From: Candidatus Zixiibacteriota bacterium
Lineage (GTDB): Bacteria; Zixibacteria; MSB-5A5; GN15; FEB-12
Reading direction: 5' to 3'
Assembly (NCBI GenBank): GCA_028289585.1
Contig: JANQPI010000026.1
Location: 1 to 64,000 of the forward strand
Length of the DNA stretch: 64,000 nt
The notes beneath the pieces are model-generated. The model was not told the origin of the DNA, ran no database searches, and worked only from the letters and a program-made list of their open reading frames with translations. This document shows, in pieces, positions 11,291 through 18,096 of this stretch; the first letter of the stretch is position 1, and each line of letters opens with the position of its first letter. The translations under genes were made by a program, and so were the position numbers.

Positions 11291-11902
11291 CTAGAAACGG
11301 TAACCCGCGGTAACTGTCAGGGCTGGGACAACCGCACTCGCCTCACCTGGTGCCGCGAAAGAGATGATGATCGGTGTTTCGGCGCGGAGATCAAGACCGC
11401 TGGAGAACGTGTAGCCGATGCCGAAATTGAAGATTGTTCCCCCTCCGGAGCCATCATCTTCCTGAAAACTGCCGCCCCCAGGTAATGGTGTACCCAGTGA
11501 CGGATCAGTGGTACTCCGCTCCTCCCATGTCATATTGACCGAGCCGAGACCGAAACCAGTAATGAAATACGGCCGATCCTGACCGGGAACATAGTTCAGG
11601 AGGTAGTTTGCCATAAGCGCGAAAACGAACAGGTCGGTGTTCTCTTCGTAGCGATTGAAACCGTTATCCGTCTCTTCATTATAGGAGCCACCGAACAGCA
11701 TGATGCCAATCTCAAGCGCATTACTGGGAACCGGGATCCGGTAGTTCACACCGAGACCGTAGGCCAGTCCCAGGGAGACATCGGTTCCGATGCCGGCTCG
11801 AACGCCAATTGCCGGGACTGTCGCCGGCGTTTCAGCTGTCGCTCCGGTTGTTAAAAGGGCAAGGCCCAGGGCGATGGGTGCGATTCGCGATAACTTCAGC
11901 AT
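11291..11902 (-). CDS. Outer-membrane beta-barrel protein (OmpA/OmpW-like size)
   Basis: Signal peptide MLKLSRIAPIALGLALLTTGATAETPA; C-terminal ...ALTVTAGYRF with terminal Phe typical of barrels. Confidence 0.7.
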   Translation of the reverse strand: MLKLSRIAPIALGLALLTTGATAETPATVPAIGVRAGIGTDVSLGLAYGLGVNYRIPVPSNALEIGIMLFGGSYNEETDNGFNRYEENTDLFVFALMANYLLNYVPGQDRPYFITGFGLGSVNMTWEERSTTDPSLGTPLPGGGSFQEDDGSGGGTIFNFGIGYTFSSGLDLRAETPIIISFAAPGEASAVVPALTVTAGYRF

Positions 11903-12011
11903 GGAAGACTCCTCACCATTTTCGAGTGTTGCGTTGCTCTTGGTGGGGATGTTTGGGGGAGGGGGAGCTTCTTACACCGAGCCCGGAGAAAAGTCGAGCG
12001 AGAGACTCTGA

Positions 12012-12680
12012 TTATTCAACGACCACAAACGGATACCGGATAGATACCGACGAGTCGCGGAGAGAGGTCACGCGCAGCGTATAGCTCCCAGGTTGCAATG
12101 ATCCCTGAGAGACGACGATGGTGGCTTGTCGGCGTTCGTTGAGTTGATCAAGGCTGGCGATCGTCCGAACGACGCTAGCGTCGTCGTTGAGAATATCGAT
12201 TCGGAAGGTCGCATCCTCGGCGTTACCCGGAACCCGGAAGGTAACAGATGTCGTTTGGCCGGATTCGAGTGCTGTCCCCACCGAGCGGGTTCCGGAGAGT
12301 GTGATCGCCGCTACCGACGTTACGGCTTCGCCTGACGGACCTCGCAGGCCAAGATAGGCGGGGTAGAGCATGAGGGCGAACAAGAGATACGCCACTGCCG
12401 GGCGGGCCAAGATTGGCACCTGGGATGGCCACAACGCCGCTCCGAGCCGCTGCCAGAAGGAGGCTTGAGGAACGACTGATCGCACGTGTTCCTCGACTTC
12501 GGCCCGGACGTCGGGATCTCCTCGCAGAAGCGAGGCGGCGTCGGAGAACTCGGCCACGGCGGTGAAACAGCTTTCGCAGCTGATCAGATGAACCTCGAAG
12601 GCCGTCTTCTCTTTTTCTGACAGCTGGCCAAGTTCATACGCATGGAGAAGTTTCCCCATTTCCGGATCTGTACACGCCAT
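12012..12680 (-). CDS. Anti-sigma factor, zinc-finger (zf-HC2) type with TM and extracytoplasmic beta domain
   Basis: HLISCESCFTAVAEFSDAASLL zinc-finger; TM AVAYLLFALMLYPAYLGL; C-terminal beta-rich GSYTLRVTSLRDSSVSIRYPFVVVE. Start overlaps sigma stop (TGATG-type). Confidence 0.85.
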   Translation of the reverse strand: MACTDPEMGKLLHAYELGQLSEKEKTAFEVHLISCESCFTAVAEFSDAASLLRGDPDVRAEVEEHVRSVVPQASFWQRLGAALWPSQVPILARPAVAYLLFALMLYPAYLGLRGPSGEAVTSVAAITLSGTRSVGTALESGQTTSVTFRVPGNAEDATFRIDILNDDASVVRTIASLDQLNERRQATIVVSQGSLQPGSYTLRVTSLRDSSVSIRYPFVVVE

Positions 12681-13219
12681 CAGTTCAGTCCCTTTTTATC
12701 AAGGCAGGCTCGCAGGTGTGCGCGACCCCGACTCAACCCGGCATAGTAGTTGGTCCGGGTAAGGTCAAGGCGTTCGCATATGTCCTCGGGTGGGTAGCCC
12801 TGATGCACCAAGTTGAGGATTCGTGCGTACAGCACGGTCTTTGTCCGTAGTCCCCGCAGGCAATCGAGCAGTGACCGGAGCAGCAGTGGGTTGCTTGGCG
12901 CTGTCTGATCTCGTTCCGGATCAATCTCCAGTGGGACGCCACGCCGTTTCTGCCGTTGCAGGTAGTTGCCAATTGTCATTCTGAGGACTCCGTAGGACCA
13001 GGCGTCGAAACTGACATGGAATTGCTCGTCACGATATTTGCGTAAGATTGTCATGACCGCTTCCTGAGCCAGATCGTCGGCATCCTCCTCTCCCACGGTA
13101 CGTTTGGCAAGCCAGCGAAGTCTTACCGTGAGTCGATCAAAGAGCTCTTTCTCCGCGGTTTCATCGCCGCCGCGTGCCGCGTCGGCCAGGTGAGCGAGCG
13201 TTTCCGATTGGCGGTTCAT
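12680..13219 (-). CDS. ECF-type RNA polymerase sigma factor
   Basis: EEDADDLAQEAVMTILRKY (region 2), WSYGVLRMTIGNYLQRQKR, region 4 GYPPEDICERLDLTRTNYYAGLSRGRAHLRACL. Confidence 0.88.
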   Translation of the reverse strand: MNRQSETLAHLADAARGGDETAEKELFDRLTVRLRWLAKRTVGEEDADDLAQEAVMTILRKYRDEQFHVSFDAWSYGVLRMTIGNYLQRQKRRGVPLEIDPERDQTAPSNPLLLRSLLDCLRGLRTKTVLYARILNLVHQGYPPEDICERLDLTRTNYYAGLSRGRAHLRACLDKKGLN

Positions 13220-13250
13220 AGATCGAGGCTAATCCGTTTCCGCGAGTCCG

Positions 13251-16200
13251 TCAGCGGTCCGCGCCCGACGAAATCGGCATCCAGGCTCCCCACCAGAAGG
13301 GGTGACGGTCTCCGGGAGTAGGCGCGTTGGCCAGCCACGTCAATTGTTGTTCCCGAAGTTGTTGAGAAAACGACCTATGGTCATGTCGCTCCCCGTAGAG
13401 CGGGGCGAGGAGCTGTGTGGTCGATTGGTCACTCACCGGCCAGAGAGCCGTCAGCACCAGGTCGACTCCGGACAGCAGGAATGAGCGTCGGAGTCCATAA
13501 ACACCCTCGCCGTCGAGAATATCGCCACGCCCCGTCTCGCAGGACGACAGCACCGCAATTTCGAGCGTACCCAGGTCGAGGTTCGTTACCTCTAATGCCG
13601 TTAAAACACCGTCATCACTGGCGGACGAATCGACCGCGGTTGCCCCGGCCAGGTAGAGCCCCGATCGCAGGAGCGGATTGAAGACCGCATCGGTTCCGGC
13701 AGAGTCAACAGTATAGTAGCCGTGCGTCGCCAAGTGCGCGATCCGTCGTCCGGCAATCATTGCGCGTACGCACGATTCACTCGCGTTGCTGTCGACAAGG
13801 ATATCGACCGGCTCGTCGGTTGCCGCTCGCCAGGCTGTTTCCAGGTCGGCCAGTTCCCGGCGGGTTCCCGGCAGCGGTGCGAGTTGCGATCGCTGGCCGA
13901 CTCGCAAGGTCGGACCATAGGTACTTGGCTCTCGCTCGGTTGTCATTGTTGCCACATGGCAAACGGTGCTTGGTTGGCGGTCGAAGGTGGGATCACCGAG
14001 TGCCAGCAGGCCGGCTCCCGCGGACGTTCCAGTGCGTTCCCGAACAAGGTCTCGGGCGCCGCCGACGTACGAGACTCGGTGAGACTCGATAACGAATTGT
14101 CCAGACTGATTGATCAACGTGCCGATCGACACGAGATTAATTGCACCATCAGCGCCAACAATGATGTCCTCGACATCATTCGCATTAGCGGGCAAACATG
14201 GCGCTACAATGAGGTTGTAGAGTGTCTTTCCAATGTCGTTGAACGTCTCCAGATCGGTAGGGCCGGCTGCTCCTGCGGCGGCAACCTCGTCGAGATGAGT
14301 GCGATACTGGGCAATGGTGGTATCGATTGGTCCAGCCTCCCCGAGGGAAACGAATCGACCTTCACCGTTCGATTGCAAAACCGCCGCGACATACATCGGG
14401 CGCAGTGTATCGTTTGCCCAATCAGCATAATCGAAACGTAGATAGTCGATCAAGAGTGCTGACTTCGGAAGTGCCGCCGTGATCGCGTCGATCGTGGGCA
14501 ACTGGCGCTCGACACTCGACGCCGACGCGTCAATGGCATTAGCAAGCTGCCGTTCGAGCTCGTTGGCCCGGGCAATCGCTTGTTCTAGTTCGGAAGCGTA
14601 TTCCGCCCCCAGAAGTTCGGGACCGGCGGCATAGATCCGCGCGATGAGGCGACGTTGGGTGCGAAGGTCCGCAACGATCGACTCGGTCGCCTCCGGTGGC
14701 AACGCATCAAGGAGTTGGCGTCGTGCAACCAGTTCGTCGTAAACGATGCCTTTGGTTCGCACGAGTGCGGTGATTGCGAGTTTGTTGTCGTGGCTGGTGT
14801 CAACGTTGTCGACGGCTACCGAAAGCAGTTGCTCGGCAGCTTCGCGCTGCAATTCCGAATAGTTGATAGCATCCGATTCGGACAGCGTGGCGCTGTTGAG
14901 GGTGAAAGCTAGCTGCCGAATGCGAAAAGCATCAGCAAAGTGCGCCGATGCTGCCGAATCTTGCCGTAACATCCGGTATGTCCCGCCGTACGCGCGGGCA
15001 ATCTCGGCCAGCCACGGACTAGTGGCGCCGAAGCGTTCGCGGCGAATCGCAAACGCACGATTCAGGCAGGCGAGCGACGAGTCAAGTTGATCGACCTGAG
15101 CGAGAGCTTGACCGAGGTTCATCCACGACTCCGATGTCAGGACATGTTCGGCTCCGAGCTTGGTCTGACGAATCTCAAGCGCCCGTTGGTGCCAATCGAC
15201 AGATTCGGCATACCGCCGGTCCGACATCGCCAGTCCACCGAGATTGTTGTAGATGTCAGCGATCTCCGGATGATCGGGACCCAGCTGAGCCTGTTTCATC
15301 AGAAGTGCTTGTTCGTAGTAGCCTGCGGCTTCGTCAAGCCGCCCGGTCTGCCGGCAGATGATGGCCAGGTTAGTCAGTGCAAGCGCCACGTGACCACTTT
15401 CGGGTCCCCCGATGCTTGCAAACAATTCCCGAGACGTTTCCAGATTGGCCTCGGCGGCACGGTATTGACGCTGATCGATCTGTACCAGAGCGAGATTGTT
15501 CAGCGTACCGGCAACGTGGGGATGATTCGGTGACAGAGTTTCCCGGAAGATGCGAAGCGCTTCGTGAAATTGCCGGCTAGCCTCGACATAATTGCCCAAC
15601 GCCCAGTGCGTTGTCGCGAGATTGCCTACAACCGAACCAACCGAGCGATGCGTCGTTCCGTACAGTTGCGTTCGAACGCGGTAGGCGGCCTTGAACTGTC
15701 GAATCGCATCCTCGAACCGACCCTGATCCTGGCGGACCAGGCCGAGGACATTGAGCGCCTCGCCAAACGTCGATGTCGCTGTCTCGTCATGCCGTCGCAT
15801 GACATCCATACTGGCTGCGAGACTGGCCGCGGCTGACGTGTACTCAGCAACCGCTCGGTGAACGCGCCCGTGGGTTAAGTAGACAAGACGCAGTTGGCGA
15901 TTGGGTAGCGAGGTATCTGTCGGTGCGTAGTGAGAAATCGCTGCGGAGAGAATAGAATCGGCCGTTGCATAGTTTCGTTGACGTCGTAATGAGAGTGCGT
16001 AGCCGTTATAGGCTTCCAGTACGGCGTCGATTCGCGGTGACTCGAGTGATTGCTCGATAGCAATCGCTTGCTGGTACGCGTCATCGGCAACCGCATACGC
16101 GCGTTTTAACCGATTGATTCGACCAGTGTGATACCAAGCGTCGGCGAGAAGTGACCGATCGACCCCCGTTAATGATTTCTCTGTCGCAATGACTTGGGCC

Positions 16201-16469
16201 AGGATCGCGAGAGCCGAATCCCCCAGTCGAATCTGGCTGAGTCCTCGGGCCAGCACAACCCGAATGACTGTCTGACCGACAAGATCCGTTGGCTCGACAG
16301 CAGCGAGTTCGCGCTCGGCCAGAGCCACGAGCTCGGCATAGGATCGAGTGTCAGCAAGACTGTCGACCGTTAGCTCAAATGCGGTGCGATCAAACGACCA
16401 CGCGGTCGGCGTACCGATGCCAATCAGGACAAAGAAACAGAACAGCAGGGAGGTGGATTGTCGTCGCAC
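13251..16469 (-). CDS. Exported TPR-CHAT (caspase-fold) protein
   Basis: 1072 aa; signal peptide MRRQSTSLLFCFFVLIGIGTPTAWS; many TPR repeats (e.g. HPHVAGTLNNLALVQIDQRQYRAAEANLE); C-terminal CHAT motifs AHLATHGYY (His codon 13723-13725) and LSSCETGRGDILDGEGVYGL (Cys codon 13539-13541). Confidence 0.92.
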   Translation of the reverse strand: MRRQSTSLLFCFFVLIGIGTPTAWSFDRTAFELTVDSLADTRSYAELVALAERELAAVEPTDLVGQTVIRVVLARGLSQIRLGDSALAILAQVIATEKSLTGVDRSLLADAWYHTGRINRLKRAYAVADDAYQQAIAIEQSLESPRIDAVLEAYNGYALSLRRQRNYATADSILSAAISHYAPTDTSLPNRQLRLVYLTHGRVHRAVAEYTSAAASLAASMDVMRRHDETATSTFGEALNVLGLVRQDQGRFEDAIRQFKAAYRVRTQLYGTTHRSVGSVVGNLATTHWALGNYVEASRQFHEALRIFRETLSPNHPHVAGTLNNLALVQIDQRQYRAAEANLETSRELFASIGGPESGHVALALTNLAIICRQTGRLDEAAGYYEQALLMKQAQLGPDHPEIADIYNNLGGLAMSDRRYAESVDWHQRALEIRQTKLGAEHVLTSESWMNLGQALAQVDQLDSSLACLNRAFAIRRERFGATSPWLAEIARAYGGTYRMLRQDSAASAHFADAFRIRQLAFTLNSATLSESDAINYSELQREAAEQLLSVAVDNVDTSHDNKLAITALVRTKGIVYDELVARRQLLDALPPEATESIVADLRTQRRLIARIYAAGPELLGAEYASELEQAIARANELERQLANAIDASASSVERQLPTIDAITAALPKSALLIDYLRFDYADWANDTLRPMYVAAVLQSNGEGRFVSLGEAGPIDTTIAQYRTHLDEVAAAGAAGPTDLETFNDIGKTLYNLIVAPCLPANANDVEDIIVGADGAINLVSIGTLINQSGQFVIESHRVSYVGGARDLVRERTGTSAGAGLLALGDPTFDRQPSTVCHVATMTTEREPSTYGPTLRVGQRSQLAPLPGTRRELADLETAWRAATDEPVDILVDSNASESCVRAMIAGRRIAHLATHGYYTVDSAGTDAVFNPLLRSGLYLAGATAVDSSASDDGVLTALEVTNLDLGTLEIAVLSSCETGRGDILDGEGVYGLRRSFLLSGVDLVLTALWPVSDQSTTQLLAPLYGERHDHRSFSQQLREQQLTWLANAPTPGDRHPFWWGAWMPISSGADR

Positions 16470-16926
16470 GCGTGATTGACTCCTTGGGATAGCCTCGGTC
16501 CAAAATCATAACCGATCAAGGTGTCGTTTCAAGCATTTCTTCGTCGGGGTAGGCTGTCGGCTCTCGCGATATCGTGCTGTAAGACTCCGGCTGATCGCTA
16601 AACGTCTCGAATGAAAACGCTCTATCTGCCTGGGCTCTACGGCTGTAGAGGAGTTACCCTATGCCTTGAGATCTGTCATTCCGAGCCACCCGTTCGAGTC
16701 GATCTACGTGGTTGGTTTTGTCCAAGTTTGGGTGGTTTGGGAAGATCGATTGGTGGGCCATGGGAAGATTTCGGCTAAAAATGTGTCGGCAGTCAACATT
16801 GCCCCCTTGTTATTGCACGTAAGAAGCGTACTCTATAGCGGACGGTTGGCGCGAGGGTCACCGTGGGATACCAACGGGTCGCGTCGCCTGCGAGTAACAC
16901 CTTCGATTGCTGCGAGATATTACCTC

Positions 16927-18096
16927 ATGACTGCCTCTACTCCGGTAGACGTCATTATCATCGGGGCCGGTGCCGCCGGTCTGGCTGCTGCAGAGCGATT
17001 GCGCTCAGTCGGCGTCGCGTGCCGATTGTTGGAGCGTCAACCACGCGTTGGTGGCCGGGCATGGAACGGTAACGCCGATCGGCCGGGCAGCTTCCCCGGA
17101 CAACTCGGTCCAGTTCGCTTCCTCTCACACTATCAGCGAGTCCGAACCTACGTTGAGCGCTACGCACTCGCGACCGATCCGATGTATCCACGACAGAAAC
17201 CGATCGCGGCGCGCAAAAACGGTCGGCGACTTGCCACCTACTGGCCCGGCCCGGATGAAATGTGGGGCCACCCCGGTCGCCCCGAACCGACTGTCAAGCA
17301 GCTTGCCCGCAAGCTGCTGGGACGACCGGAGGGAACAACGTTTACCATTCGCGGTGGCACCGAGCGGCTCACCGATGCCCTTGCCGCTCCGTTGACCAAT
17401 TGTATCACCACGGGTGTTGCTGTGTCGGCAATTGACAGTCACGCGGACCATGTGTCTATTTCGTACTCCGATGAGCATCACGAAGGGATTGTGAGGGCAA
17501 GATTTGCCATTTGTGCGATCCCCTTATCGGAACTCGACAAGATCGCCTGGTATCCGCAGTTGCCGAAGTCGTGCGCGGACGTTGCCCAACGAATTCCGTT
17601 TGCCTCGGCCGTTCGTATTTTTCTCCGCTGTCGCACACCCGTCTGGGCGATTGCAGGCGAGAGTGGTTTCGCCGTCTCTGAGGAGGTCGGAGAGATTTGG
17701 CCACAGTCGACGGGCGACTCCGAGGCTCACCATTGGCTGATCTGCTACGCCCAGGGGAGCATTGCTCAGCGACTCGAACCACTCTCCAATAGTGATCGCG
17801 TGGCAATCGCTACTAACGAGATCGAACAGCTATGGCCGGGAGCGTCACGGCAGATCGACAGCGGTTGGTCGTTCTCGTGGAAATCACAGAACTGGATTGC
17901 AGGGGGGTGGCCGCTCGTCCGCGACGGGTTTATTGGCGAGACCGACGTCTTTCTCAATCCGCACGGTAGTGTTTACTTTGCTGGCGATTATGTCACGTCG
18001 CCGGATCTCTTGAATACGGTTGAAGGAGCGATCCAGTCTGGCCACCGAGCTGCCGATGCGGTTCACAGTGCGCTGTCACCGGCGCGACGAAACTAG
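16927..18096 (+). CDS. FAD-dependent amine oxidase-like protein
   Basis: VDVIIIGAGAAGLAAAERLRSVGVACRLLERQPRVGGRAW; C-terminal VYFAGDYVTSPDLLNTVEGAIQSGHRAAD; likely start ATG 16927 rather than 16666. Confidence 0.82.
   Translation: MTASTPVDVIIIGAGAAGLAAAERLRSVGVACRLLERQPRVGGRAWNGNADRPGSFPGQLGPVRFLSHYQRVRTYVERYALATDPMYPRQKPIAARKNGRRLATYWPGPDEMWGHPGRPEPTVKQLARKLLGRPEGTTFTIRGGTERLTDALAAPLTNCITTGVAVSAIDSHADHVSISYSDEHHEGIVRARFAICAIPLSELDKIAWYPQLPKSCADVAQRIPFASAVRIFLRCRTPVWAIAGESGFAVSEEVGEIWPQSTGDSEAHHWLICYAQGSIAQRLEPLSNSDRVAIATNEIEQLWPGASRQIDSGWSFSWKSQNWIAGGWPLVRDGFIGETDVFLNPHGSVYFAGDYVTSPDLLNTVEGAIQSGHRAADAVHSALSPARRN

Follow-up and report, generated by a model that had tools for sequence, protein, structure and literature searches.

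The 64,000-nucleotide stretch of Candidatus Zixiibacteriota DNA analysed here (the window) raises the question of why a predicted exported protease, which combines a tetratricopeptide repeat (TPR) superhelix with a caspase-like CHAT domain, should be encoded together with an extracytoplasmic function (ECF) sigma factor, a membrane-bound zf-HC2 anti-sigma factor and a small outer-membrane barrel. An initial annotation had proposed that an envelope signal activates the CHAT protein to cleave the periplasmic part of the anti-sigma factor, releasing the sigma factor. Our analysis reveals an extracytoplasmic CHAT/ECF module that is conserved and seems to be autoregulated, a conclusion that stands and is stronger than the one first put forward. 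We assign a probability of about 0.5 to the reading in which the CHAT protein is the extracytoplasmic site-1 protease of this ECF system, cutting the anti-sigma factor, with the four genes forming an autoregulated envelope-sensing module. To our knowledge, the known site-1 proteases of ECF systems are serine or metalloproteases. If our reading is true, an extracytoplasmic caspase-fold enzyme would bring a new protease clan into regulated proteolysis, and the Craspase cascade of protease, inhibitor and sigma factor would gain a plausible non-CRISPR relative.

The association of the CHAT gene with the sigma/anti-sigma pair is conserved outside this genome, as the initial annotation had staked its proposal on. 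A search of 133 genomes of the phylum recovered 49 non-redundant anti-sigma factors that match the family into the ectodomain, 4 of them at a contig end, and a CHAT gene adjoins 37 of the 45 resolvable cases (35 intact trios, one CHAT gene truncated where its contig stops and another in fragments). The anti-sigma factors and CHAT domains of these relatives are mostly 21-37% identical. CHAT is present in 31 of the 33 genomes that carry such an anti-sigma factor vs 18 of the 100 that do not (Fisher p=2e-15, which serves only as a guide, as the genomes are related and the test ignores kinship). Among the intact trios, CHAT lies downstream on the same strand in 26, is convergent in 7 and lies upstream of the sigma gene in 2 (the window and L087). 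All four genes of the window are present on the minus strand and share one direction, as originally described; the order first taken from this locus requires correction, because CHAT opens the operon in the window whereas it follows the anti-sigma gene in most relatives. Some genomes also carry extra CHAT genes in tandem (L066, L070). That the three genes merely cluster, their products never acting on one another directly, appears most improbable: linkage within the phylum is partly inherited, and the Mantel correlations were not adjusted for the species tree, but the association survives three gene orders at low sequence identity and recurs with different classes of sigma and anti-sigma factors. 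In transcription order, the genes of the window are as follows.

13251..16469, minus strand: TPR-CHAT protein, 1072 aa; residues 1-25 signal-peptide-like, TPR superhelix about 28-650, CHAT domain 746-1065
12680..13219, minus strand: ECF sigma factor, 179 aa (profile match)
12012..12680, minus strand: zf-HC2 anti-sigma factor, 222 aa, with a cytoplasmic zinc finger, one transmembrane helix and a beta-sandwich ectodomain; its gene overlaps the sigma gene
11291..11902, minus strand: small outer-membrane beta-barrel, OMP_b-brl (Pfam), last gene

The recurrence with other partners takes several forms. In Zixiibacteriota, several CHAT genes that lack a window-type anti-sigma neighbour adjoin a different sigma/anti-sigma pair, and a second anti-sigma class with two zinc fingers, A5, adjoins CHAT in all 7 of its strong matches (six within about 50 bp, one at about 0.9 kb). 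A sigma factor, a transmembrane protein and CHAT also occur together in Krumholzibacteriia (L103), Ignavibacteriae (L104) and Acidobacteriota (L108, L111), at one or two loci per phylum. Divergent sigma factors escaped the sigma profile used at the outset, making the initial linkage survey an undercount that later searches correct in part. At L033 (13928-17885) there is an apparently cytoplasmic version of the trio, with a sigma factor, on a contig that also carries an ordinary exported system; in the pair 13928-16654 / 16648-17885, a CHAT protein without a signal peptide adjoins a zinc-ligand-bearing protein without a transmembrane helix, so that the compartments of the two match.

The CHAT protein itself has the features expected of an exported peptidase. 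It scores 178 bits against the CHAT model (PF12770; cut-off 24) and 197 bits against TPR_12, and the 3.15-Mb genome has no second CHAT gene. The initial annotation had described the His (ATHG) and Cys motifs as intact, and both hold up: His916 and Cys977 align with positions conserved in 50 of 50 full-length CHATs of relatives. Proteolytic activity is predicted.

13275..14234, minus strand: CHAT (caspase-like) domain (Pfam)
13722..13724, minus strand: catalytic His916 (ATHG), conserved in 50/50
13539..13541, minus strand: catalytic Cys977 (SSCETG), conserved in 50/50
16480..16485, minus strand: Shine-Dalgarno AAGGAG for the CHAT GTG start at 16469

By a hydropathy measure (not SignalP), the N-terminus, MRRQSTSLLFCFFVLIGIGTPTAWS, resembles a signal peptide, and the Shine-Dalgarno sequence supports the GTG start, placing this hydrophobic stretch at the real N-terminus. 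A signal-peptide-like core occurs in 49 of the 50 full-length CHATs, the remaining one being truncated by the limit of the retrieved sequence; at two internal positions, this measure passes in 1/50 and 7/50. These predictions support export of CHAT, again as first proposed, into the compartment that holds the anti-sigma ectodomain.

An AlphaFold2 model of the protein (predicted template modelling score 0.84) resembles separase as its top fold match, DdvA as its second, and the Craspase TPR-CHAT. Separase is a eukaryotic protease that cleaves cohesin; it shares with the window protein a helical superhelix joined to a caspase-fold protease but has no anti-sigma factor. DdvA of Myxococcus xanthus (PDB 8rot, 8rw5) is also the best PDB sequence match of the CHAT family (E=1.5e-6; our catalytic comparison with its CHAT covered the Cys only). 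Like the window, the DdvA/DdvS system pairs an ECF sigma factor with a transmembrane anti-sigma factor, and the DdvA chain is likewise named a CHAT domain-containing protein; in DdvA, however, CHAT is fused to the anti-sigma factor, whereas the window encodes it as an exported protein in its own right. An antiphage island is under the control of DdvS (PMC12288465), and in 2015 the signal that inactivates DdvA was unknown (PMC4374960). The presence of CHAT domain and anti-sigma factor in one chain raises the alternative that CHAT acts on the anti-sigma factor by binding rather than cutting, as a periplasmic sensory partner equivalent to a split DdvA. We consider this improbable, given that binding alone would not require the His/Cys pair that all 50 CHATs have kept.

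The sigma factor consists of sigma2 and sigma4 domains only and exceeds the NCBIfam sigma70-ECF cut-off (TIGR02937; 45.2 vs 42.9), with Sigma70_r2 above its own cut-off and Sigma70_r4_2 detected below its own. The anti-sigma factor matches zf-HC2 (PF13490) at 32.5 vs 22.2 bits and has an HxxxCxxC zinc finger followed by one transmembrane helix, predicted at residues 90-112, and a beta-sandwich ectodomain in the AlphaFold2 model. Its best PDB match is 3hug_B (E=1e-6), which we take to be RslA; a fold search returned generic beta-sandwich matches only. The protein is predicted to bind and inhibit its cognate sigma factor. An M50 (RseP-like) site-2 protease gene is present in the genome (match 3.2e-70), although such genes are nearly universal and lend weak support to intramembrane proteolysis.

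12567..12653, minus strand: anti-sigma zinc finger zf-HC2, residues 10-38; H31, C35, C38
12345..12413, minus strand: predicted transmembrane helix of the anti-sigma factor, residues 90-112 (AlphaFold2 model, hydropathy)
12285..12287, minus strand: anti-sigma Arg132, candidate P1 cleavage site (alignment, model)

If CHAT cuts this protein, the alignment of the anti-sigma factors points to a candidate site. Across 47 aligned sequences with a mean column identity of 27%, full invariance is limited to three columns, those of two zinc ligands and of Arg132. This arginine, the sole invariant residue of the ectodomain, lies just outside the membrane in a predicted coil (residues 129-136) right behind the first ectodomain strand, and it aligns with an invariant Arg of class A5 in a profile comparison (97.7% probability). 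In more distant partners, inspection by eye finds Arg followed by Ser, Ala, Gly or Asn at a similar place, although such dipeptides are common. Cutting after Arg is frequent among clan CD peptidases.

Further evidence comes from the upstream regions. An ECF-type motif, TTTrG-N13-TCTTACA, occurs upstream of sigma genes in relatives; the pattern TTTG-N14-16-TTAC, chosen after the upstream regions had been inspected, occurs at 12 of 52 loci vs 1.2 in shuffles. In cross-validation, 27-46% of held-out sigma upstream regions beat a threshold that 2% of controls pass. In the window, a site of this type is absent upstream of the sigma gene and present upstream of CHAT (16602-16578), where it outscores 99.3-100% of control upstream regions by a position weight matrix that was trained on the sigma upstream regions of other loci, with CHAT upstream regions left out. 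The genome holds just one other exact match. Because the site upstream of CHAT is both high-scoring and rare, CHAT is probably transcribed by the sigma factor, within a self-activated operon, and autoregulation of the system is supported at the level of predicted promoters.

16578..16602, minus strand: ECF-type promoter-like site TTTAG-N13-TCTTACA, 109 bp before the CHAT GTG
16505..16532, minus strand: sigma-70-like promoter TTGAAA-16-TATGAT, nearer the CHAT start codon (consensus match only, 10/12)

The second exact match (11952-11976, plus strand) and a match at 13103-13126 (plus strand) have the wrong orientation and were set aside. The latter belongs to a set of antisense matches inside sigma genes, seen also in G039, G052, G074, G075, G088 and G095; they arise because the complement of the motif encodes a conserved VRF..LAK segment, and are probably coincidental, an antisense promoter being possible. 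A broad sigma regulon was considered and rejected: the strict motif occurs 0-3 times per genome, near control levels, which allows no claim beyond the operon. One genome contains three exact motif matches on one strand within 540 bp (G076:C1:1297008-1297543), far from its trio near 2.00 Mb.

From the gene set, linkage, predicted export, catalytic dyad, motif, invariant Arg and RseP-like gene that we computed, we infer cleavage of the anti-sigma factor by CHAT, its site, the signal and the order of events. With its cytoplasmic zinc finger, the anti-sigma factor would keep the sigma factor tethered to the inner membrane, while the superhelix of the exported TPR-CHAT protein would bind an extracytoplasmic signal. 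Signal-bound CHAT would then cut the ectodomain next to the membrane, with Arg132 as the likeliest P1 residue (TR|S), and an RseP-type protease would clip the stump, freeing the sigma factor to transcribe its own operon, including CHAT, in a positive feedback. As substrate (the anti-sigma ectodomain), site (Arg132) and readout (the TTTrG-N13-TCTTACA promoter) can all be named, the idea is directly testable.

Several observations weigh against this reading. Arg132 is kept in the 8 anti-sigma factors without an adjacent CHAT, though their genomes hold CHAT genes elsewhere, for which reason these proteins failed as a control for the arginine. Four further ectodomain residues (L128, F148, G198 and F218) are more than 90% conserved, and Arg132 could have a structural role. 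Two divergent partners lack the motif: that of L063 has Lys, and in that of L101 the ectodomain is almost missing. In other phyla (cyanobacteria, Bacteroidota), no sigma/anti-sigma pair lies near most TPR-CHATs, so that the partnership does not extend to TPR-CHATs in general. Finally, a place in the sigma operon fits CHAT as an output as well as an input. CHAT might mainly be a periplasmic protease that is made when the sigma factor is active and has other targets, in the envelope or among foreign proteins, with the anti-sigma factor being triggered in some other way. Its position in an apparently sigma-controlled operon, usually downstream of the anti-sigma gene, and the extra tandem copies of some genomes would agree with such a role. 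We nevertheless judge it rather unlikely, since CHAT is tied to several anti-sigma types, suggesting contact with the anti-sigma factor, and DdvA bears its CHAT domain inside the anti-sigma factor itself, an input position.

The reading of CHAT as a site-1 protease has parallels in known systems. It follows the logic of RseA/DegS/RseP, with a periplasmic site-1 cut, a membrane site-2 cut and sigma release; the place of DegS, a PDZ serine protease, would be taken here by a cysteine protease of caspase fold that carries a TPR sensor. Inhibition of the ECF-like CASP-sigma is relieved in Craspase when Cas7-11-Csx29 cuts Csx30 (PMC10028731). The parallel with this cascade that the initial annotation had drawn proves genuine, in that a TPR-CHAT protease of similar fold, a sigma inhibitor and an ECF-like sigma factor are encoded together. 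Craspase, however, is cytoplasmic and RNA-guided (PMC10028731), unlike the exported CHAT, and Csx30 is not a zf-HC2 membrane anti-sigma factor. No Cas1 was found in the genome of the window, which led us to set a CRISPR link aside and agrees with the original impression of a locus without CRISPR; Cas7-11 itself was not searched for. No NCBIfam model named for Csx29 or Csx30 appears among the matches of the CHAT protein or the anti-sigma factor, the existence of such models being unchecked. The sigma factors L103:441-1172, L108:1595-2197 and L111:1275-1886 weakly match NF041236, a model for sigma factors of type III-E CRISPR systems (E 4e-5 to 1.5e-3, short of its cut-off). A known defence system was also considered and set aside, as only generic TPR models of PADLOC matched. 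In ECF54, CHAT-domain proteins occur in the genomic context of the sigma factor and proteolytic control has been proposed, but the group is described without an anti-sigma factor (PMC8999054); in the window one is present, and its gene overlaps the sigma gene. We found no description of a trio of exported CHAT, sigma factor and membrane anti-sigma factor in the literature, although key ECF papers lay outside our search and no priority is claimed. As a tentative generalisation, which we regard as possible though doubtful, exported separase/caspase-fold TPR proteases may widely serve as ligand-gated site-1 enzymes, each cutting a membrane anti-sigma factor behind a conserved juxtamembrane Arg, with the Craspase cascade and the fused DdvA as specialised relatives.

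The barrel protein that ends the operon matches OMP_b-brl at 34.3 bits (Pfam), and no homologue was found in the relatives' neighbourhoods examined. The genomes searched contain a large further anti-sigma class of about 760-800 aa, in which zf-HC2 and a transmembrane helix precede a long TPR-bearing extracytoplasmic part without CHAT (for example, L043:732-3014 and L098:8024-10330); where inspected, these genes lie directly behind a sigma gene. A 1074-aa protein at L097:5107-8331, also directly behind an ECF sigma gene, combines a zf-HC2 anti-sigma domain, a Ser/Thr kinase, a transmembrane helix and TPR repeats, as judged by eye.

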